Positions 449 to 10,001 of a stretch of DNA of 10,001 bases are shown here, in pieces. Position numbers and translations under genes: made by a program. Origin of the DNA: Deltaproteobacteria bacterium (GTDB lineage Bacteria > Desulfobacterota_B > Binatia > Binatales > Binataceae); NCBI GenBank assembly GCA_021827465.1, contig JAKAVX010000052.1, forward strand, positions 1-10,001, read 5' to 3'. The notes below the pieces were generated by a model. The model did not search any database and was not told where the DNA came from. It saw only the letters and a list, made by a program, of their open reading frames with translations. Within the stretch, counting starts at the first letter, position 1, and the number at the start of each line of letters is the position of its first letter.

Positions 449-519
449 TGGCCTCGTGCGGGGTCATGCTGCGCCGATCCGGCATGCTTCGCCCGGTTTT
501 GCCGAATTCCGCGGCGGCG

Positions 520-548
520 TTGGACCGCTATCGCACCCGGGCTATTAT
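520..548 (+). promoter_or_regulatory. Sigma70-like promoter for the FHA/kinase cassette
   Basis: TTGGAC at 520-525 (3 of 6 to TTGACA) and TATTAT at 543-548 (5 of 6 to TATAAT) are separated by exactly 17 bases. Transcription would begin near 555, leaving a leader of about 55 bases before the ATG at 609. The position, between the stop of the oxidoreductase gene and the FHA gene, is what one would expect for the start of a new operon. It also argues against the longer reading frame that opens with GTG at 456, because that start would lie upstream of the promoter. This is inferred from pattern matching only. Confidence 0.5.
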
Positions 549-608
549 GTTTTCCGCACTGTGGTGGAGATCGGCCCGTCCGTCGGAGCCGGCCAACGGT
601 CACTTGGA

Positions 609-1898
609 ATGAACGGCGCGATCAACCGGCGTGAACTCACTTACAAGGCGCTTGCGGGGCTGGCCGGCGGCGCGATCGGATGGATCCCCGTCGAGATCGC
701 GAGCCACGGGCACGCGCTGACCCAGCAGTTGTCCACCACTGCCATTGTCGCCTCGTACATCTCGATGGCGATTCTTGGCGGATTGATCGGTGGGTTGATT
801 CTCGCCTCCGACGAGCAGCGCCTCGAGCTGACGCCCCGGGTGCAGAACCGTTTCGTGACCGGCTTCGGTGTCTGCGCGGTCTTCGTCCTCGTCGCCAACT
901 ATTTCGCGAATCAGCTCTTCAGCGCGATCCTCGACTACGGTGGATGGAGCCTTGGACATCAAGGCTCGATCTTCCTCCTGGTGCTCGGCCGGATCATCTC
1001 GTGGCTGCTGCTGGGCGCGATGCTTGGCGCGGGAGTCGGCGTCGCGGGATTCTCCCAGGCGGACGTCCCGCGTTCGATGGTCAACGTGGCCAAGGGCGCG
1101 ATCGGCGGCGCGGCGGGCGGCTTCGCCGGCGGACTCGTCTTCGATTTCGTAAATCAGCTAACCGGCGGCGGCCTTGTCTCGCGCCTGATCGGGCTGAGCC
1201 TCATCGGACTCGCGATCGGACTCGTAATCGGGCTGGTTCACGAGTTGACCAAGAGCGCATGGCTCACGGTCGAGGCCGGGCGTCTCAAGGGCCGCCAATA
1301 CCGGCTTGAGGGCGCGATCTCCTCGATCGGCCGCGCCGAGGAAAATCGCGTCGGCCTGTTCGGCGATCCCTCGGTGCAGGCGCGTCACGCGGTAATCGAG
1401 CGCCACGGCGACGATTACGTGCTGCGCGGGCTCGCGGTGCAGGACGGCACGTTTCTCAACGGCGAGCGGGTCGAAAGCGCGCCAATCAAGGACGGCGACC
1501 GCATCGGGGTCGGCGCCTACGAACTGGGCTTCCATCTGCGCCAGGTTCCCGCGACCGCATCTCCCGCCTCGCGCATTCGCCCCGTCGTCGTGACGACCGC
1601 CCCCAGTGCTCAGGCCGCTTCGGGACCGTGCCTCATCGACGCCGCCGGAAATCGCTTTCCGCTTCGTTCCGGCGAGCCCACCCGTATCGGCCGCGCGCTC
1701 GACAACGACATCGTGATTTCCCACTCGTCGGTATCGCGCCATCACGCCAGCGTCGAACCGCGCGACGGCGCCTTCGATCTGCGCGATCTGGCGAGCCAGA
1801 ACGGAACCTTCGTCGGCCGCGAGCGCGTCAGCGAAGCGCCGCTGCGCGACGGCGACACGGTCCGTCTCGGCGAGGCGGTTCTGACGTTCCGTGCCTGA
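609..1898 (+). CDS. Membrane protein with two cytoplasmic FHA domains
   Basis: The product has 429 residues from the ATG at 609. Residues about 12-212 hold roughly six hydrophobic, glycine-rich segments (near 12-30, 45-66, 83-104, 119-146, 160-182 and 190-212). Two FHA-type domains follow. FHA1 (about 220-310) is divergent: after GR241-242 the phosphothreonine-binding SRxHA stretch reads QARHA at 257-261, and the NGT motif is DGT (279-281). FHA2 (about 341-429) is canonical: GR361-362, VSRHHA at 375-380 and QNGTF at 397-401. FHA2 should bind phosphothreonine peptides, placing the protein as a reader of a Ser/Thr kinase; the kinase encoded two genes downstream is the obvious partner. ATG609 is chosen because a promoter lies just upstream and the membrane segment begins soon after; no clear Shine-Dalgarno precedes it. 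GTG at 561 or 456 are alternatives. The gene overlaps the next by 8 bases, indicating one operon. Confidence 0.85.
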   Translation: MNGAINRRELTYKALAGLAGGAIGWIPVEIASHGHALTQQLSTTAIVASYISMAILGGLIGGLILASDEQRLELTPRVQNRFVTGFGVCAVFVLVANYFANQLFSAILDYGGWSLGHQGSIFLLVLGRIISWLLLGAMLGAGVGVAGFSQADVPRSMVNVAKGAIGGAAGGFAGGLVFDFVNQLTGGGLVSRLIGLSLIGLAIGLVIGLVHELTKSAWLTVEAGRLKGRQYRLEGAISSIGRAEENRVGLFGDPSVQARHAVIERHGDDYVLRGLAVQDGTFLNGERVESAPIKDGDRIGVGAYELGFHLRQVPATASPASRIRPVVVTTAPSAQAASGPCLIDAAGNRFPLRSGEPTRIGRALDNDIVISHSSVSRHHASVEPRDGAFDLRDLASQNGTFVGRERVSEAPLRDGDTVRLGEAVLTFRA

Positions 1899-2280
1899 CG
1901 CCGATTTTTCAAGACCGCGCTTCTGCTCCCAATGCGGTCAGCCGGTTACCGTCGAAGGAGCGAGCTTCTGCAAGGATTGCGGCGCGCCGCTCGAGGCGAC
2001 CGGCCCTATCGCGCGCGACTTCGGGATGCGCCCCGTGATCGCCTTCGCGCTTAGCATCATTCCGGGCCTCGGCCACGTCTACCAGCATCATCCGTGGCGG
2101 GGTATCGGATGGTTTTTCGGGGTGATAATAGCCTACGGCATAAGCAATCCGCTCGGTTTCCTGCTCCACCTGATATGCGCTGCCAACGCCGCGGTTTACG
2201 CTACAATGCGAACCGGGGGTGCGAAGCCGAATCCTGCACGCGGGACCGACCCGGCCGCGCCGGCCAACTTGAGGTTCTAG
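1891..2280 (+). CDS. Small zinc-ribbon membrane protein
   Basis: The 129-residue product starts with GTG at 1891, inside the last codons of the FHA gene, so translation is probably coupled. The N-terminus carries a double CxxC zinc ribbon: C12, C15, C27 and C30, in the pattern FCSQCGQPV and SFCKDCGAP typical of bacterial zinc_ribbon_2-like domains. After a short basic linker there are about three hydrophobic segments (about 47-64, 71-86 and 86-105). The first contains IPGLGHVYQHH, resembling the PGLGxxY motif of TM2-like/DUF5683-type small membrane proteins. The C-terminus is a polar tail rich in Pro and Ala. It sits between an FHA membrane protein and a membrane Ser/Thr kinase that has its own zinc ribbon, so a structural or adaptor role in a membrane complex is plausible. 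Its biochemical function is unknown. The start is supported by the zinc ribbon beginning ten residues in; no strong ribosome binding site is seen. Confidence 0.8.
   Translation: MPDADFSRPRFCSQCGQPVTVEGASFCKDCGAPLEATGPIARDFGMRPVIAFALSIIPGLGHVYQHHPWRGIGWFFGVIIAYGISNPLGFLLHLICAANAAVYATMRTGGAKPNPARGTDPAAPANLRF
2180..2207 (+). promoter_or_regulatory. Possible internal promoter ahead of the kinase gene
   Basis: TACAAT at 2202-2207 matches the -10 consensus in 5 of 6 positions, and CTGCCA at 2180-2185 matches the -35 consensus in 4 of 6, with a 16-base spacer. It lies within the 3' end of the zinc-ribbon gene and would give a leader of about 100 bases before the kinase ATG at 2318. It could allow kinase expression apart from the rest of the operon. 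Such matches occur by chance, so the call is weak. Confidence 0.25.
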
Positions 2281-2317: not shown

Positions 2318-3862
2318 ATGATATCGCCCGACACCATAATCGGCGGACGCTACCGCGTGACCAAACCGCTTGGTGGCGGCGGGATGAAGCTTGTCTATCT
2401 CGCCGAGGATCTCCGCCTTGCCGCACGGCCATGCGCGCTCGCCGAGATGGTCGATACGTTCACCAGCCCCAACATGCAGAATCAGGCCGTCGCCGCCTTC
2501 CAGCGCGAGGCCGACATGCTCGCCCAACTCAGCAACGAGCACATCCCGCGCATCTTCGACCGCTTCTCCGACGCCAACCGCCACTACCTCGTGATGGAGT
2601 TCGTGGACGGGATCACGCTCGAACAGGCGCTCGCAAAAAACGGCGGCAGGCTCGACGAGACCCGGGTCATCGATATTGCGCTCCAGATTCTCGACACGCT
2701 CGAATACCTGCACAACCTGAAACCGCCCGTCATCTATCGCGATCTGAAGCCCTCGAACGTGATGCTTACGGCGTCGGGCCAGATCAAGCTTATCGATTTC
2801 GGTATCGCGCGGTTCTTCCAGCCGCACAGCAACGTCACGATGATCGGCACGCAGGGCTACGCGCCGCCCGAGCAGTATCGCGGACTCGCCGAGGTGCGCT
2901 CGGATCTCTACGCGCTCGGCGCCACGATGCATCATGCGCTGACCGGGCGCGACCCCGCCGCCGAGGCCCCGTTCAGCTTCCCGCCGACCCGCTCGCTGCT
3001 CCCCGGCATCGACGCCGCCCTCGGCGACCTGATCGATCAGTCGCTCGCCTACGACGTCGTCCATCGGATGGCCGACGCGACCGAGTTCAAGCATCGCCTC
3101 ATCGAAATCAGGACGCGCCTTGCGACGGGAAACGGCCGTATCCGTCCGCCCGCGCGCACGCCCGGACAAAAGCCCCAGCTTCAACTCCCGCTCGGCGCCG
3201 CGATACCGGGCGCGCAGGTTTCCGCCTCGCAGGAGCCGACCGTGCTGATCGCGGGCGAGACCCAATGCGTCGCGTGCCGCCGGACTATCCCGGCCGACTC
3301 GCGCTTCTGCTCGTTCTGCGGAAGCGACGTTACGGCGTCGCTCGGCGCGCCCGCGGCGTCATCCAGTCCCGAGGCTGCAACCGTGATGCTCTCGAATCCG
3401 GCGCCGTCCGCCGGCGCCGCCGCTCGCGCGGGAGCGATCCATCGCGAATGGCGCGACCGGCCGAGCCGCAGTCACCCGATCACCTATATCGCGCTGGTCG
3501 CGATTGGACTGTTCCTCGCCGCCTTCGGCGTCACCACGATACTCGCCCATCTGCAACGGCCCGTGCCGCAGGCGACTCCGCCCGGGATGGGCACGGCGCC
3601 CTACCCGTACGTTCCCCCCGCCAACCCGCCGGCGGGATCCTCGTACGATACCCAGCGCGCGCAGCAATTCCGCCAGGCGCTCAACAGCGCCGGCCTGAAC
3701 GCGGTCAAGTTCAGAATCCAGGGCAACACCGTGACGCTATGGGGCACGGTGCCGGACGAGTTCGCGCGGATGAAGGTCGAAACGATGGCCTTCATGCTGC
3801 CCGGGATCATCTATCTCGAAGATCACCTCACGGTTTCCGGCTCGCCGTTCGCCGGTCCGTAG
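2318..3862 (+). CDS. Membrane-anchored Hanks-type Ser/Thr kinase with zinc ribbon and BON-like domain; atypical catalytic lysine
   Basis: The 514-residue protein has a kinase domain at about 11-265, a zinc ribbon with C317, C320, C331 and C334, one transmembrane helix at about 388-410, a Pro/Ala-rich linker, and a BON-like domain at about 446-507 (VTLWGTVPDEFARMKVE then a hydrophobic LPGIIYLEDHLTV). Visible catalytic elements are the alpha-C glutamate E64, YRDLKPSN (D142, K144, N147), DFG (160-162) and APPE (182-185), so an active enzyme is expected. However, the beta-3 VAIK motif is CALAEM (39-44), with Ala42 where lysine belongs. The glycine loop is GGGGMKLVY (19-27), with Lys24 in the position used by WNK kinases. 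The kinase and zinc ribbon should be cytoplasmic and the BON-like part outside, perhaps sensing envelope or lipid. The start gives the usual short lead before GGRYRV. The gene is 37 bases after the zinc-ribbon gene; the FHA protein is a likely phosphoprotein reader. Confidence 0.93.
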   Translation: MISPDTIIGGRYRVTKPLGGGGMKLVYLAEDLRLAARPCALAEMVDTFTSPNMQNQAVAAFQREADMLAQLSNEHIPRIFDRFSDANRHYLVMEFVDGITLEQALAKNGGRLDETRVIDIALQILDTLEYLHNLKPPVIYRDLKPSNVMLTASGQIKLIDFGIARFFQPHSNVTMIGTQGYAPPEQYRGLAEVRSDLYALGATMHHALTGRDPAAEAPFSFPPTRSLLPGIDAALGDLIDQSLAYDVVHRMADATEFKHRLIEIRTRLATGNGRIRPPARTPGQKPQLQLPLGAAIPGAQVSASQEPTVLIAGETQCVACRRTIPADSRFCSFCGSDVTASLGAPAASSSPEAATVMLSNPAPSAGAAARAGAIHREWRDRPSRSHPITYIALVAIGLFLAAFGVTTILAHLQRPVPQATPPGMGTAPYPYVPPANPPAGSSYDTQRAQQFRQALNSAGLNAVKFRIQGNTVTLWGTVPDEFARMKVETMAFMLPGIIYLEDHLTVSGSPFAGP

Positions 3863-3885: not shown

Positions 3886-3903
3886 TCGCGAAACACGCGA
3901 TTT
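3886..3903 (+). terminator. Weak hairpin with short T run after the kinase gene
   Basis: TCGCG (3886-3890) can pair with CGCGA (3896-3900) across the loop AAACA, and three T residues follow. The stem is only five base pairs, so at best it is a poor intrinsic terminator for the kinase operon. Transcription may instead continue into the PHP gene. Confidence 0.2.
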
Positions 3904-3940
3904 GCCGGGATGCGCGATTTATGCTGAAAGAAGTCCCGCG

Positions 3941-4600
3941 ATGCTGGTAGATTTGCACGTTCATACCCACCTGTCCGACGATTCCAGGACCACGCCCGAG
4001 AAGTACCTCGAGACGGCGGTGAAAACCGGCTCGGGCCTCGGCGCCATATGCTTCACCGAGCATCGCCGCTTCCCGACCGACGCCGAAACCGATCGCCTGT
4101 ACGCGGAATTGACCGATCGCTACGGAATCCTGGTGATAAAGGGAATCGAGGCCGATACCGACCTCGGCCATCTGCTGCTCTTCGGCCTGACGCCCGCCGC
4201 GCTTCGCCATTTCGATCCGGCGCAGCGGATGCTCAAGAGCGCGCATCTGATCGATCTCGTTTACGGCGAGGGCGGCGTCGCAATCCCGTCGCATCCGTTT
4301 CGCGATTCCGGCTTCGGCGAGCGGCTCGAACAACTTACGGCGAAGCACGGAGCGGCGCTCGGCGCTATCGAGGTGTTGAACGGACAGAACTCGCCGCGCG
4401 AGAACGACCTTGCGGAGATCGCGGCGGAAAAATTCGGGCTTACCGCGCTCGGCGCGAGCGACGCGCATTTTCCGACCCCGCAATGGTTTCTCACCTGCGC
4501 GACGGAACTGGAGCGCGATATCAAGAGCGTCGCGGAACTATGCGCCGAAATCCGCGCCAGCCGCGCCAAACCGCACCGCTTCCGGGCCGCGACCTCCTAG
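3941..4600 (+). CDS. PHP-family metal-dependent phosphoesterase
   Basis: The 219-residue product is a compact, stand-alone PHP domain. The metal-binding motifs are all present: DLHVHTHLSDDS at 4-15 (H6, H8), FTEH at 38-41, KGIEADTDLGHLLLFG at 67-82 (E70, H77), PSHPFR at 116-121 (H118) and GASDAH at 171-176 (D174, H176). The family uses two or three metal ions to cleave phosphate esters; known members include TrpH/YciV-like nucleases, histidinol phosphatase and polymerase PHP domains. The short length and lack of an inserted domain fit the small hydrolases usually annotated only as PHP domain protein; the substrate is unknown. ATG3941 is chosen because the DLHVHTH motif normally begins within a few residues of the start. 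AAAGAAG lies seven bases upstream as a weak ribosome binding site. It follows the kinase gene by 78 bases and may be read from the same operon or from its own promoter. It converges with the histidine kinase gene. Confidence 0.9.
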   Translation: MLVDLHVHTHLSDDSRTTPEKYLETAVKTGSGLGAICFTEHRRFPTDAETDRLYAELTDRYGILVIKGIEADTDLGHLLLFGLTPAALRHFDPAQRMLKSAHLIDLVYGEGGVAIPSHPFRDSGFGERLEQLTAKHGAALGAIEVLNGQNSPRENDLAEIAAEKFGLTALGASDAHFPTPQWFLTCATELERDIKSVAELCAEIRASRAKPHRFRAATS

Positions 4601-4733: not shown

Positions 4734-6002
4734 TTACCTGGGGCGGCGTACTGCCCGATGCGCCGGTAATCGCGTCCGTCGAGCGTTTCGCGCGACGGAC
4801 GTTTTCAAGGGCACGAACACTTCAACTGTCGTGCCCTGCCCCGGCCGGGAACGGATGTCGAATACGCCCTTCACCAGCCGCACCCGCTCTTCCATGCTGA
4901 CGAGGCCGAGCCTGCCGTTCTTGCGAACTTCCGCCACGTTGAACCCGCCGCCGCTGTCCTCGATATAAAGACTGACGCCTGCGGCCTTGCCTTGCAGCCG
5001 CACGCGGACGCTGGATGCTTCGGCATGCTTGCGGATGTTGAGAAGGCTTTCCTGCACGATTCGGTATAGACAAAGCGACACGTCATCGGGCAGCGAAGCC
5101 GGAGGTTTTTCGCATCTGAGGCTTGCCGGGATTCCCGCATACTCCGAGAACTTGCGGCATTCCTCCCTTAACGCGGCTTCCAGTCCAAGCTCGTGCAGAA
5201 TCACCGGATGGAGCCGGCGCGACGCGTCGTGCATCTGCTCCGCGAGCCATCCGATCTTCCTGCCGAGTTCCGCAAGGCGCTCCTTGAGCGGACCAGTGGC
5301 GTCCGAGGATGTCCGCAGAGCCGATACCTCCATCCCGAGCGCCGCCAGCTCCTGGCTGAAAACGTCGTGCAGCTCGCGCCCCAGTTCCCGATTCTCCATC
5401 TCCTGGGCGGAGAGCATCGCTCCCAGGTTTCGAAGCTGCCGTTCGGCCCTAAGGCGCTCGATAAATTGCGCGGCCTGATACGCGTAGAGATCGAACCGCT
5501 GCAAGTCGCCCTCGGATGGCCGATGGGGTCTGCGGAAATGCGTGGAAAACATTCCGATCGGCTGGCCGTCCTTGCCGAACAGCGGCGTGGATTGAACCGC
5601 GCGGTAGCCCGCCGACGCCACGACGCTACGATGCGGCGCGTGATCCTCGTCGGCATCCACATCCTCGATTATTATTCGCCGCCTGCTGCGCAGACTCCGG
5701 CCGCACGCCGAACTGTCGGCCGCTGAAACTTCGCGAAAGTGTTCCAGGAAATCCGGACCGAAACCGCGATACGCCACGATTTCCAGCACCTGCTTTTGCG
5801 GGTTCAACAACTGGATGTTGCCCATGTCGGCTCCCAGTAGAGCCATCCCGCCCTCGATTATTTCCTCCAGTCCCGCGACCAGGTCGTGTGACAGCCAAAG
5901 GCGGTCGCTCGCTTCGCGCAGGCGGGCGAGCGTGGAAGCCTCCAAGGCCAACCGGGCTTTTCGTTCCGCGTGCGCCCGTTCGGTCTTTTTGCGATTTTTC
6001 AT
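4734..6002 (-). CDS. GAF-domain sensor histidine kinase, NarL-type (HisKA_3)
   Basis: The 422-residue cytoplasmic protein begins with a charged, coiled-coil-like helix (about 1-35) and has no transmembrane segment. A GAF domain spans about 38-185, with the typical VQSTPLFGKDGQPIGMFSTH stretch (136-155), so it likely senses a soluble ligand, gas or redox state. The HisKA_3 dimerisation helix follows, with the phosphoacceptor H212 in RELHDVFSQ. The HATPase_c domain has its N box YRIVQESLLNIRKHAE (E318, N322), IEDSGGGF (D349) and GLVSMEERV. The domain ends near residue 399, and a basic tail of about 20 residues follows. Family members normally phosphorylate a NarL/LuxR-type response regulator encoded next door. 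None lies downstream here, where the convergent PHP gene is found, or upstream within the window, so it is an orphan as far as visible. The ATG at 6000-6002 gives a normal N-terminus; no strong ribosome binding site precedes it. Confidence 0.92.
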   Translation of the reverse strand: MKNRKKTERAHAERKARLALEASTLARLREASDRLWLSHDLVAGLEEIIEGGMALLGADMGNIQLLNPQKQVLEIVAYRGFGPDFLEHFREVSAADSSACGRSLRSRRRIIIEDVDADEDHAPHRSVVASAGYRAVQSTPLFGKDGQPIGMFSTHFRRPHRPSEGDLQRFDLYAYQAAQFIERLRAERQLRNLGAMLSAQEMENRELGRELHDVFSQELAALGMEVSALRTSSDATGPLKERLAELGRKIGWLAEQMHDASRRLHPVILHELGLEAALREECRKFSEYAGIPASLRCEKPPASLPDDVSLCLYRIVQESLLNIRKHAEASSVRVRLQGKAAGVSLYIEDSGGGFNVAEVRKNGRLGLVSMEERVRLVKGVFDIRSRPGQGTTVEVFVPLKTSVARNARRTRLPAHRAVRRPR

Positions 6003-7089: not shown

Positions 7090-7857
7090 TCATCCCAGAA
7101 TCATCAGCGCTCTCAACGTCGGGTTATGACTGTCGCTTTTCTCCTCAAGTTCCCGCTTAAAGGACTCCATAGCGCTCTCGAAACTTTCGACAATAAACCC
7201 CGTCGGAATCACCAGCGTGCGGCTCCCGTGTATGTCCTCTACGTAGTGAGGGGACGAGCTGCAAGCGTATCCGTTGCCCAACTCTGGGTCTGGGTCGAGG
7301 GCGTGAAGCCAACCGGAACGGTAGTGTCGATAAAGGAACTCGCCATAGCGGCTCCTCTGTAGCCATGAGCCGGGAATTCCGGCCGCGCGGATGTCTGGAT
7401 CGTCTAGCAAGACTTGGAGGCTTGGGTCTTGTGTCCAAGGGAGGACACCCGCCGGCACCCAAACAACCGGGGCGAGCAACTTGTGCAAGATAGAATGAAG
7501 TTCCTTTTGCTGCCGCGCTGGCCCCCCCGGACGATCATGCCTCGGCTTGTGCCCCGCCGCCTCTGCTCCCGCCCGGGCCAACAGATTCTGGTGGCTGCAC
7601 TTAGCCCAAGGCTCTCCGGCGTGGGCGGCAAGAAACTCTCCGAAGCGCGACTCTGAATTGGCGAAGTGCCGTCCTGAGTTGAGTGCCCAGTACTTCGCCA
7701 AGGCGTCGATCTGCGCTGAAACTAAGATGTTCAGTTCGGGGTTGAAGCTGGCGGCAGGGTGGATCTTGACCGCAGGGTTGCGCGTATCAAGTTCCCTAAG
7801 GTTCGCGAGACGCTGGCCGAAGAATGTGAAAAATTCTCTTGTGCTGACCTGTTTCAT
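7090..7857 (-). CDS. Uncharacterised protein with a HEPN-like R-x4-H motif
   Basis: The 255-residue product is not firmly recognised. The start ATG at 7857-7855 is supported by GGAGGA three bases before it; a TTG 33 bases further upstream is less likely. The protein is mostly helical by composition, with no signal peptide or transmembrane segment. The first part has ILVSAQIDALAKYWALNS (44-61), like helix-rich proteins that pack around a core bundle. The C-terminal part reads FLYRHYRSGWLHALDPDPEL (174-193), then PHY (203-205) and LVIPTGFIVESFESAMESFK (215-234). R180-SGWL-H185 has the spacing of the R-x4-6-H ribonuclease motif of HEPN domains, and the surrounding YR...H...P.Y...L..P..F order resembles HEPN-like defence or stress proteins. 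That assignment is an inference. The gene is visibly less GC-rich than its neighbours and stands alone between a CLC gene and a decayed toxin-antitoxin pair, suggesting horizontal transfer. Confidence 0.75.
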   Translation of the reverse strand: MKQVSTREFFTFFGQRLANLRELDTRNPAVKIHPAASFNPELNILVSAQIDALAKYWALNSGRHFANSESRFGEFLAAHAGEPWAKCSHQNLLARAGAEAAGHKPRHDRPGGPARQQKELHSILHKLLAPVVWVPAGVLPWTQDPSLQVLLDDPDIRAAGIPGSWLQRSRYGEFLYRHYRSGWLHALDPDPELGNGYACSSSPHYVEDIHGSRTLVIPTGFIVESFESAMESFKRELEEKSDSHNPTLRALMILG

Positions 7858-7860
7858 AAG

Positions 7861-7866
7861 TCCTCC
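7861..7866 (-). promoter_or_regulatory. Shine-Dalgarno of the HEPN-like gene
   Basis: The minus strand reads GGAGGA at 7866-7861, followed by CTT and the ATG at 7857. It is the best ribosome binding site in the window and decides the start in favour of ATG over the upstream TTG. The spacing is slightly short. Confidence 0.75.
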
Positions 7867-7941
7867 GGGACCGACTTGGCCAAAGAGCAACTCTAGCTAA
7901 CTCCGGGCGGGACTTGGTTGTCGCCAGCCAAAAGTCTCCAA

Positions 7942-7973: not shown

Positions 7974-10001
7974 CTACGCCGATGATGGTTGCGTGGCTTC
8001 GCCCTGGGCGAGCGCGCGGGAAAAGCGCCTTAGATCCGCTGACCTGCCGGCGGTCACCAGCACGTCGCCGACGTTGAGCGCGCGGTCCGGCGCGGGCGGA
8101 ATGAATCCCGCCTCCGGATCTCCCGCGTCGCGCACCGCCAGCACCGAAATGCCGTAACGCGCGCGCGGATCGAGCTTGCGCAGCGTCGTCCCCTCCGCCT
8201 CGGGCGGCACCACCACCCGCGTGATCCTGTATCCCGTCGCCCAGAAGATGTTGCTGTCCTGGGTGCCCAGCGTCGAGAGCGACACGGTGACGCGGTTGAG
8301 CGCCTTGCCGATGTCGTGGCGCGTCACGATTCCGAGGAACCGTCCGCCATGCTGGCGCTCGGTGACCGGAAGCTCGTCGATTCCGTCGCGCTCCATCGTT
8401 TGCCCCGCCAAATCGAGGCTCGACTCCGGCATGATGGTTGGGTACTGGCGGTCGCACAGATCGAACGCGTTGACCAGCGGCGACAGTTCCTCGCGGCTGC
8501 CGAGCACTCCGACCAGCTCGCGCGTCACGATAACCCCGGCCAGCTCGCCCTCGTCGTCAACCACCGGAAGAATCCCCTGAGGGGTTTCGCCGGCTACGCG
8601 CAGCACGTCGGTAAGTTTCGCGCTGCCTGAAACCACCGTCACGTCCTTGGTCATCACGGAGCCGACCGGGATGTGGCTCAGCGCGATACGCTCCTGGTCC
8701 ACGTGCAGCGTCTTGCCCTCGCGCGCGAGCTTGTAGGTGTCTATCGACTCCGGCTCGATCGCGCGCGAGACCGCAAGCGCCGCAATCGTGGCGATCATCG
8801 CGGGCAGCGCGACCGTGTAGTTCTGCGTCATCTCGAAGAGCAGGAACAGCGCGGTAAGCGGCGCATGCGTGGTTCCGGCCAGGAACGCGCCCAATGAGAC
8901 CAGCGCGTAGGAGCCGCGCGGCCCGGTCAGATGCGGGATGATCGACGCGAACGCGCGCTGACACGCCCCACCCGCCATCGTGCCGATGAAGAAAATCGGG
9001 CCGAACACTCCTCCCGGCGCGCCGCATCCGAGCGACAGGCTGCTCGCCGTGAACTTCGCCATCGTCAGCGCAAACAGCAGTCCGAAGCCGAAGTCCCCCG
9101 CCAGCGCCCGGTTGATGATCGGATAGCCGTCGGAAAGATTCTGCGGCAGCGGAATCGCGATAAGGCCGACCGCCGCAAGTCCGATTGCAAGCCGCGCCCA
9201 ATCCGGAACCTTGAGCCGGCGGAAGTAACTGGCCGTGCCGTAAAAGAACCGGATATAGGCGGCGCTCAGAAGCCCGACGCCGACACCCATCAGGCCGTAG
9301 GTGATCATCTCCCAGTAGCTCTTGAGCACGAACGGCGGAACGACGAATACCGCCTGGTTGCCGTGAATCGCGCGCGCGGTCACGACCGCGCTGGTGGTGG
9401 CGACGATCAGCAGCGTAAGGTTCGCGACCTCGGCGTGACCGAGCAGGACGATCTCCTGCGCGAACATCAGGCCGCCGATCGGCGCGTTGAAAGTGACCGC
9501 GATAGCAGCGCCTGCGCCGGCCGCGACCAGCACCTTGAGGCGCTCGGTCGTGAGCTTGCGCGCCTGCGCCACCATCGAGCCGATCGCGCCGCCTATTTGC
9601 GCGATCGGGCCTTCACGCCCGACCGACGCGCCGCATCCGAGCGAAAGCGCCGCGCCCATCGCCTTGACGAAGATCCATCGCCGCTTGATACGCGCGTTTC
9701 CCAGGTTCACCTGTTCGAGGAAGTTCGGAAATCCGTAGCCGAGCGCGTCGCCCGGAAAGAACCACGCGAGGACGAGCATCCCGATTCCGCCCGTCACCAG
9801 GACCATCGGAATAAAGATCAGGAAAAATCCGCCGCGCGGAATCCCGAGCGCCCGCCATTCCAGGTCGCGAAACACCCGCGAGAAGAAGTCGATCAGCAGG
9901 TTGAAGCCGAAATGGCCGAGCGCACTCAGCACTCCGACCACCACGGCGAGAAGAATCAATTGAACGTATTCGAACTGATCGGTGCGAAGGCCAAAATTGT
10001 A
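7974..10001 (-). CDS. CLC chloride channel/transporter with CBS pair and TrkA-C-like domain, 5'-truncated
   Basis: The gene runs off the window: 14 codons upstream of the TTG at 9959 remain open to base 10001, so the true start lies outside. Numbered from that TTG, 661 residues are visible. The membrane part (to about 400) has the CLC anion-pathway motifs GYGFP (74-78, usually GSGIP), GREGP (114-118, gating glutamate E116) and GGVFGP (316-321). Two CBS domains follow at about 431-488 and 496-555, then a TrkA-C/RCK-C-like domain at about 575-648 (LRKLDPRARYGISVLAVR, ALNVGDVLVTAG). CLC proteins form inner-membrane dimers that conduct chloride or exchange it for protons; the CBS and TrkA-C parts probably gate in response to nucleotides or other small ligands. 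By alignment, the E. coli ClC-ec1 internal proton glutamate E203 is Ile170, and the central tyrosine Y445 appears to be Asp407. No neighbouring transport genes are visible. Confidence 0.93.
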   Translation of the reverse strand, partial: YNFGLRTDQFEYVQLILLAVVVGVLSALGHFGFNLLIDFFSRVFRDLEWRALGIPRGGFFLIFIPMVLVTGGIGMLVLAWFFPGDALGYGFPNFLEQVNLGNARIKRRWIFVKAMGAALSLGCGASVGREGPIAQIGGAIGSMVAQARKLTTERLKVLVAAGAGAAIAVTFNAPIGGLMFAQEIVLLGHAEVANLTLLIVATTSAVVTARAIHGNQAVFVVPPFVLKSYWEMITYGLMGVGVGLLSAAYIRFFYGTASYFRRLKVPDWARLAIGLAAVGLIAIPLPQNLSDGYPIINRALAGDFGFGLLFALTMAKFTASSLSLGCGAPGGVFGPIFFIGTMAGGACQRAFASIIPHLTGPRGSYALVSLGAFLAGTTHAPLTALFLLFEMTQNYTVALPAMIATIAALAVSRAIEPESIDTYKLAREGKTLHVDQERIALSHIPVGSVMTKDVTVVSGSAKLTDVLRVAGETPQGILPVVDDEGELAGVIVTRELVGVLGSREELSPLVNAFDLCDRQYPTIMPESSLDLAGQTMERDGIDELPVTERQHGGRFLGIVTRHDIGKALNRVTVSLSTLGTQDSNIFWATGYRITRVVVPPEAEGTTLRKLDPRARYGISVLAVRDAGDPEAGFIPPAPDRALNVGDVLVTAGRSADLRRFSRALAQGEATQPSSA

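Follow-up and report, generated by a model that had tools for sequence, protein, structure and literature searches.

A PknB-type kinase family of Binatales with a probable WNK-like relocation of the ATP-anchoring lysine, and a second such family in PVC bacteria

Loss of the beta3 lysine is the usual mark of a pseudokinase, as stated in the available text of PMC12599244. Kannan et al. (2007; PMC1821047) described two groups, WNK and CAK-chloro, in which the positive charge has moved from position 72 to position 55, and the available part of their paper names WNK as the only functional ePK family without K72. WNK kinases carry Cys in beta3 (PMC12599244) and Leu at the place of the DFG Phe (PMC7606576), while CAK-chloro, from a small-molecule-kinase-like group, has Arg55, Met72, Phe at the alpha-C Glu and Gln186 (PMC1821047). 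POMK also uses a loop lysine (PMC12599244); it has no alpha-C Glu, and its lysine pairs with an acidic residue of a DLD motif. Seven bacterial pseudokinase families are treated in PMC12599244, and in the available text a loop lysine together with intact HRD and DFG is described for none of them, the comparison being one of descriptions and CP1 being variable. Most of the families of O'Boyle et al. (2025), i.e. ActPs1-3, GLW, CP1, DYD and DLHK, are described in the available text as combining beta3 lysine loss with a degraded HRD and/or DFG, and CP1 is reported there to contain some proteins in which a single motif is degraded. In searches of the open-access literature we found no report of a swap of the beta3 lysine for a loop lysine in bacterial Hanks-type kinases.

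Here we analysed a stretch of 10,001 nucleotides (contig JAKAVX010000052.1, hereafter the window), the features of which are collected in Table 1. The kinase ORF, the start of which reads ...KPLGGGGMKLVYLAEDLRLAARPCALAEMVD..., comprises a kinase domain, a zinc ribbon, one transmembrane helix and a BON-like end. A previous sequence-only reading had identified Lys24 (AAG) in GGGGMKLVY and Ala42 (GCC) in CALAEM; both motifs were read correctly, and the other catalytic residues it listed (E64, D142, K144, N147 and D160) are all found in the ORF. The interval to which it assigned the feature, 2318-2443, spans the start codon to Ala42 only, and the relevant unit is the entire kinase gene.

Table 1. 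Positions of the kinase gene, its motifs and its neighbours in the window
Feature	Positions	Strand	Evidence
Membrane protein with two FHA domains	456..1898	+	Pfam FHA, two stretches
Small membrane protein with zinc ribbon; its gene overlaps that of the FHA protein	1891..2280	+	Homologue in 19/19 informative neighbourhoods
Ser/Thr kinase gene, 514 aa	2318..3862	+	Pfam Pkinase, E 1.1e-35
Glycine-rich loop GGGGMKLVY, residues 19-27; Lys24 = AAG at 2387-2389	2372..2398	+	
Beta3 motif CALAEM, residues 39-44; Ala42 = GCC at 2441-2443; Lys there in relatives	2432..2449	+	
Alpha-C Glu64, the presumed pairing residue for Lys24	2507..2509	+	Invariant in 167/167 aligned kinases
Catalytic loop YRDLKPSN (D142, K144, N147)	2735..2758	+	All three in 65/65 swapped rows
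DFG motif (D160, F161, G162); F161 = place of WNK1 Leu369	2795..2803	+	65/65 swapped rows
Activation-segment threonines T174 and T178 (TMIGT)	2837..2851	+	Both invariant in 59 aligned homologues
Zinc ribbon (Cys317, 320, 331, 334)	3266..3319	+	Four Cys invariant in 59/59
Predicted transmembrane helix, residues ~388-412	3479..3553	+	Helix in full-length model; hydropathy peak 385-403
BON-like C-terminal domain, residues 444-506	3647..3835	+	Pfam BON in 25/59 members, E<=0.01
PHP-domain protein, directly downstream of the kinase	3902..4600	+	Pfam PHP; 17/18 informative neighbourhoods
ClC-type channel/antiporter with CBS and TrkA_C domains	7974..9959	-	14/16 informative neighbourhoods

The closest solved relatives of the window kinase by sequence and fold are kinases of the PknB/StkP/PrkC type, StkP and PknB being the best PDB sequence matches, and the StkP alignments place Lys24 on the third loop glycine and Ala42 at the region of the VAVK lysine. 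HRD-like, DFG and GTxGYxxPEQ motifs and a membrane anchor are shared with these enzymes, which, however, keep the beta3 Lys and the loop Gly; the window kinase also lacks a PASTA region (score of 191 against a cutoff of 450 for the NCBIfam PASTA-kinase model). The NCBIfam matches were kinase models alone, all scoring far under threshold, and PADLOC matched nothing but broad kinase models. Among the hallmarks of Hanks-type kinases, the fold, the alpha-C Glu, the HRD-Asp, the Lys and Asn of the catalytic loop and the DFG-Asp are all present; the beta3 (VAIK) lysine is absent, its place being taken by Ala42 in 201/201 listed proteins.

The zinc-ribbon profile matches 58/59 family members at E<=0.01, with the window protein's own match lying under the Pfam cutoff, as does its own BON match (E 0.003). 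A full-length AlphaFold2 model with 59 close homologues had an unusable N-lobe (pLDDT ~30-50) and was replaced by a model of the kinase domain (residues 1-275), built on a diverse alignment of the window sequence and 93 of the 97 listed references, from which the decayed L207, L080 and weak rows of L174 and L021 were left out. This model (pLDDT 91.6) has the bilobal kinase fold, with beta2 at residues 24-31, beta3 at 37-45 and alpha-C at 51-69; Lys24 is the first residue of beta2, and Ala42 lies inside beta3.

A protein search recovered 6906 homologues at E<=0.001. GGGGMK and [CS]ALAEM occur together in 118 of the best 120, a list that contains the window's own protein; the other two start at the Met of MK and show no glycines. 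With both motifs recurring in 118 of these best 120 homologues, K24/A42 cannot be put down to accident or to misread bases. A search with a divergent relative as the query gave a further list, the best 120 of 5667 matches, and the two lists together comprise 201 distinct proteins, all of which (201/201) have K24/A42 by pairwise alignment. E/D/K/N/D occupy the five catalytic places in 200/201, the exception having Tyr at 142. Divergent members differ around the two sites (GGGGQKTVY, GGGGMKSVY; CAVAAMID), with K and A unchanged. Clustering at 85% left 60 representatives, of which 59 were aligned (P0112, with its short N-terminus, was left out), and in 65 diverse swapped rows E64, D142, K144, N147, D160 and T178 are each invariant. 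On these alignments, K24/A42 is a fixed, family-wide trait.

The locus nearest to the window kinase, L001 (89% identity), comes from a MAG labelled Deltaproteobacteria. Its genome belongs to the same order as the genome of the Binatus soli locus L014, and Binatus soli is placed by NCBI in Candidatus Binatota, Binatia, Binatales. Matches at E<=1e-60 were obtained in 40/41 genomes of this order, and a K24/A42 kinase was read at loci of all 40. At E<=1e-55, 49/148 genomes of the class matched; the nine matching genomes outside the order have one match each at this threshold, and their loci (L085, L189-L196) are all G24/K42. A strict pattern of the family was found in 5/297 genomes of the phylum to which the L001 genome belongs.

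The sequence-only reading had suggested testing whether loss of the beta3 lysine and gain of the loop lysine co-vary among homologues, and this co-variation was observed. In 132 close relatives read from genomes (>190 bits, >=215 aligned residues) we found 48 K24/A42, 83 G24/K42 (a few of these canonical rows being from Chloroflexota), one K24/V42 and no further state, with E/D/K/N/D intact in all 48 and all 83. Kinases with both lysines, which the same reading had named as the case that would overturn it, number 0/132 among the close relatives and 0/80 among the rows of a wider tree, and none of the 132 lacks both lysines. In the kinase L263, a loop Lys precedes position 24 by one residue, and the beta3 Lys is retained. 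The K24/V42 protein (L207, genome G305) is the sole relative among the 132 that has lost A42; it has Ser, Ala and His at the places of K144, N147 and D160, and therefore has the appearance of a genuine pseudokinase that descended from swapped kinases. Pairwise alignment also gave a few 'GA/GV/GT' states in remote kinases, which we rejected as alignment slips, most of those printed showing a VA[IV]K-type lysine a few residues off and L097 being known from context alone.

Canonical Binatota paralogues, of a b-type (GGGGMG..CAIKEM) and a c-type (GVGGMG..VAVKEM), occur in the same genomes; they are sister or near kin of the swapped kinase, with 50-57% identity over the kinase domain. When 65 swapped rows were compared with 47 b-type and 31 c-type rows, sorted by identity, positions 24 and 42 were the only ones of 269 scanned with one residue in 100% of the swapped rows and another in 100% of both paralogue groups: K against G at position 24 and A against K at position 42 (65/65 versus 47/47 and 31/31 in both cases). 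By the genetic code, GGN to AAR and AAR to GCN each take at least two base changes, and no intermediate between G24/K42 and K24/A42 was seen among the relatives read. The b- and c-type genes usually lie ~4 kb from each other and distant from the swapped gene. These tandem canonical kinases flank an ORF with weak kinase similarity and degenerate catalytic places (L174:1725-3872, 716 aa), which, with its counterparts, is perhaps a pseudokinase.

A maximum-likelihood tree was inferred from 167 rows reduced to 66 at 80% identity, with columns 24 and 42 removed. The 32 swapped rows (31 K24/A42 and L207) form one clade (support 100/99), which points to one origin of the swap in the Binatota family; this clade is sister to six b-type canonical rows (99/96), and Chloroflexota kinases and the c-type paralogues fall outside both. 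The position beside canonical Binatota kinases was recovered again in an 80-row tree (98/97) and indicates descent from kinases with a beta3 Lys. Most simply, the swap would have followed duplication of a canonical kinase, and the coupling within the Binatota family is, as read from these trees, one event followed by strict retention.

Like WNK, the window kinase has a Lys in place of the third loop glycine and lacks one in beta3. Its family differs in having Ala, not the WNK Cys, in beta3 and F161, not Leu, in DFG (both 65/65), as judged against the available text of PMC12599244 and PMC7606576, respectively. Independence from the WNK lineage rests on the placement beside canonical Binatota kinases, in trees built without WNK sequences. 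The window kinase is thus most likely not a member of the WNK family, and the convergence proposed by the sequence-only reading agrees with this bacterial placement (99/96). At the CAK-chloro places listed above it differs from that subfamily, with K24, A42, E64 and G162, and E64 and DFG, in 65/65 swapped rows, distinguish its family from POMK. Its intact YRD and DFG set it apart from the O'Boyle et al. families, as these are described in the available text.

Other phyla were scanned for DNA encoding GxGG[ML]Kx[VI][YF], with the reversed pattern as a control. Chloroflexota gave a match in 1/251 genomes, not a kinase (control 0), Planctomycetota 12 matches in 11/246 genomes, three of them kinases by eye (control 1), and Myxococcota, with a narrower ATG form, matches in 2/217 genomes, one of them a kinase (control 2); six single genomes gave 0 matches. 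Judged by the control, these counts are near chance, and therefore only locus-by-locus reading counts. None of the four kinases found by scanning has a Lys at the beta3 place, which holds Ala in L231 and L240 (one genome, one family) and, by eye, Cys or Gly in L233 and L242. Homologues of the L240/L244 kinase numbered 7758 at E<=0.001, and all of the best 120, query included (P0202-P0321), combine the loop Lys and beta3 Ala with intact E/D/K/N/D; DWG is present in 120/120 and HLD in all but one (HQD). Source names in this PVC family include Lentisphaera, Pontiella, Luteolibacter, Akkermansiaceae and Planctomycetes. Two genomes contributed 22 kinase loci: the 14 with a loop Lys all have beta3 Ala and HLD (14/14), whereas the eight without it, L263 among them, all have beta3 Lys and HRD (8/8). 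One genome, G725, holds 19 related kinases, 14 of them swapped (e.g. L244:574-2652 and L243:210-2171).

The PVC kinases share the loop Lys, the beta3 Ala and E/D/K/N/D with the window family, but have HLD/DWG instead of YRD/DFG, other C-terminal parts and a separate origin. On the 80-row tree, with rows picked by hand and columns 24 and 42 removed, the swap needs two changes, a single change sufficing in 0% of 200 bootstrap trees, and the AU test rejects one swapped clade (p 8.5e-63, logL difference 116), the group having been named after the data were seen. Only two independent pairs are available, both in the same direction, and are therefore too few for a sign test. By these tree-based comparisons the swap arose at least twice in bacteria, in Binatota and in PVC.

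A third case may be provided by kinases of the TerY-P ('Yegi1') kind. Three of them (L233:157-1590, L245:3410-4909 and L270:5001-6500) show, by eye, GGMK[DR]VY and VV[GC] at the likely beta3 place. They are very divergent from the window kinase, with HSDLS[YP]KN and D[VIL]D, both resembling the 'Yegi1' entry in Table 1 of PMC12599244; in the available text of that source the name 'Yegi' appears in this table alone, which enters the 'Yegi1' kinase with VVA- among the pseudokinases and makes no remark on a loop lysine. The kinases of L233 and L245 adjoin a phosphatase-like gene, the neighbours at L245 being, by Pfam, PP2C, TerY_C/VWA and TerC, and this arrangement of TerY-C, PP2C and kinase genes recurs in a relative on a Caballeronia plasmid. 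The case is tentative because Pfam leaves the N-lobe of the TerY-P kinases unaligned. Relatives of these kinases were found in 2325 plasmid records, where 'lipopolysaccharide kinase InaA family protein' is a frequent annotation.

The neighbourhood of the window kinase was compared over 19 loci, the window included, with L218 as the reference and presence counted over informative loci. The kinase is present in 19/19, the FHA gene in 18/18 and the gene before it in 14/15. FHA domains read phosphothreonine, and the conservation of this partner fits an active partner kinase. The listed FHA ORF starts with GTG at 456; the L218 homologue starts at MNG, which matches ATG 609 here, and the true start is therefore probably the ATG at 609. 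Between the PHP and ClC genes the window has a GAF histidine kinase (4734-6002) and a 266-aa ORF without Pfam match (7090-7890); in several relatives ClC directly follows PHP.

Taken together, the product of the gene is quite probably an active PknB-type kinase with a membrane anchor, one whose ATP-anchoring Lys has moved from beta3 (Ala42) to the third loop glycine (Lys24), making it WNK-like at the ATP site. Lys24 would reach the ATP site, pair with the alpha-C Glu64 and hold the alpha and beta phosphates, like the loop lysine of WNK1, and D142, N147 and D160 would act as in other Hanks kinases. Within this family the swap would have a single origin, in a duplicated canonical kinase of Binatales, and would have been retained since; the upstream FHA and zinc-ribbon membrane proteins probably read or localise the phosphothreonine output. 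The WNK-like swap that the sequence-only reading had proposed for a bacterial kinase is thus supported as a property of 201/201 listed proteins, with the other catalytic residues strictly retained but for the one Tyr at 142.

This must be weighed against the reading in which catalysis was lost with the beta3 lysine, so that the protein is a pseudokinase that binds ATP or acts as a scaffold within the FHA operon, its loop Lys only aiding nucleotide binding. The beta3 Lys is indeed absent from all 201 listed proteins, and the available text of PMC12599244 classes such proteins as pseudokinases unless activity is shown. However, D142, K144, N147, D160, E64 and T178 do not vary in 65/65 swapped rows, whereas the decayed relative L207 has lost several catalytic residues, and a scaffold would have no reason to keep a fixed Lys at the WNK position; we regard loss of catalysis as unlikely. 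An active kinase without a phosphate anchor, in which Lys24 has some other role, for example in contacting a substrate or partner, appears far less plausible still, since the changes at positions 24 and 42 go together in each of two independent lineages and Lys24 occupies the position used by WNK kinases, according to the available part of PMC1821047. The active kinase anchored by Lys24 remains our preferred reading.

As an addition to it, the kinase could sense chloride in the manner of WNK, in concert with the ClC gene nearby. In WNK1 the anion is bound by the Gly370/Leu371 amides, with Leu369 and other residues around it, and the moved lysine might permit this site, as a review suggests (PMC7606576, available text). 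The ClC gene lies within ~6 kb downstream in 14/16 informative neighbourhoods, the window included. Against this, the place of Leu369 is held by Phe161 in 65/65 swapped rows, and L369F makes WNK1 chloride-insensitive (PMC7606576, PMC13397483, available text); in the PVC family the same place is held by Trp in 120/120 listed kinases (the best 120 of 7758). The two genes beyond ClC are conserved nearly as often (13/16 and 12/16), and ClC therefore sits in a wider syntenic block; it is on the strand opposite to the kinase, and L226 and L227 keep FHA, zinc ribbon and kinase with no ClC in the ~7 kb examined. The ClC gene is thus probably a syntenic neighbour from outside the kinase unit, and WNK-type chloride sensing by the window kinase is unlikely; the chloride effect that the sequence-only reading had added as a speculation is not supported by the Phe161 comparison, and we give the combined sensor-and-ClC proposal very little credence.

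Kinases without the beta3 Lys are usually filed as dead. Two independent families that keep the other catalytic residues and have a Lys at the WNK place suggest that this rule mislabels active enzymes, and the second of them, in PVC bacteria, is by these comparisons new here. A much bolder proposal, which we consider unlikely, is that bacteria have repeatedly moved the lysine into the loop (in Binatota, PVC and perhaps TerY-P), leaving a small beta3 residue each time, that the vacated pocket would act in regulation by binding a small ligand or ion, as with chloride in WNKs, and that some 'pseudokinase' classes would be active ligand-gated kinases. The Binatota and PVC families are natural replicates of the WNK rewiring, and canonical relatives of the same fold exist for both, those of Binatota in the same genomes; paired mutants could therefore test which step came first, how the two changes interact (epistasis) and what relocation costs.
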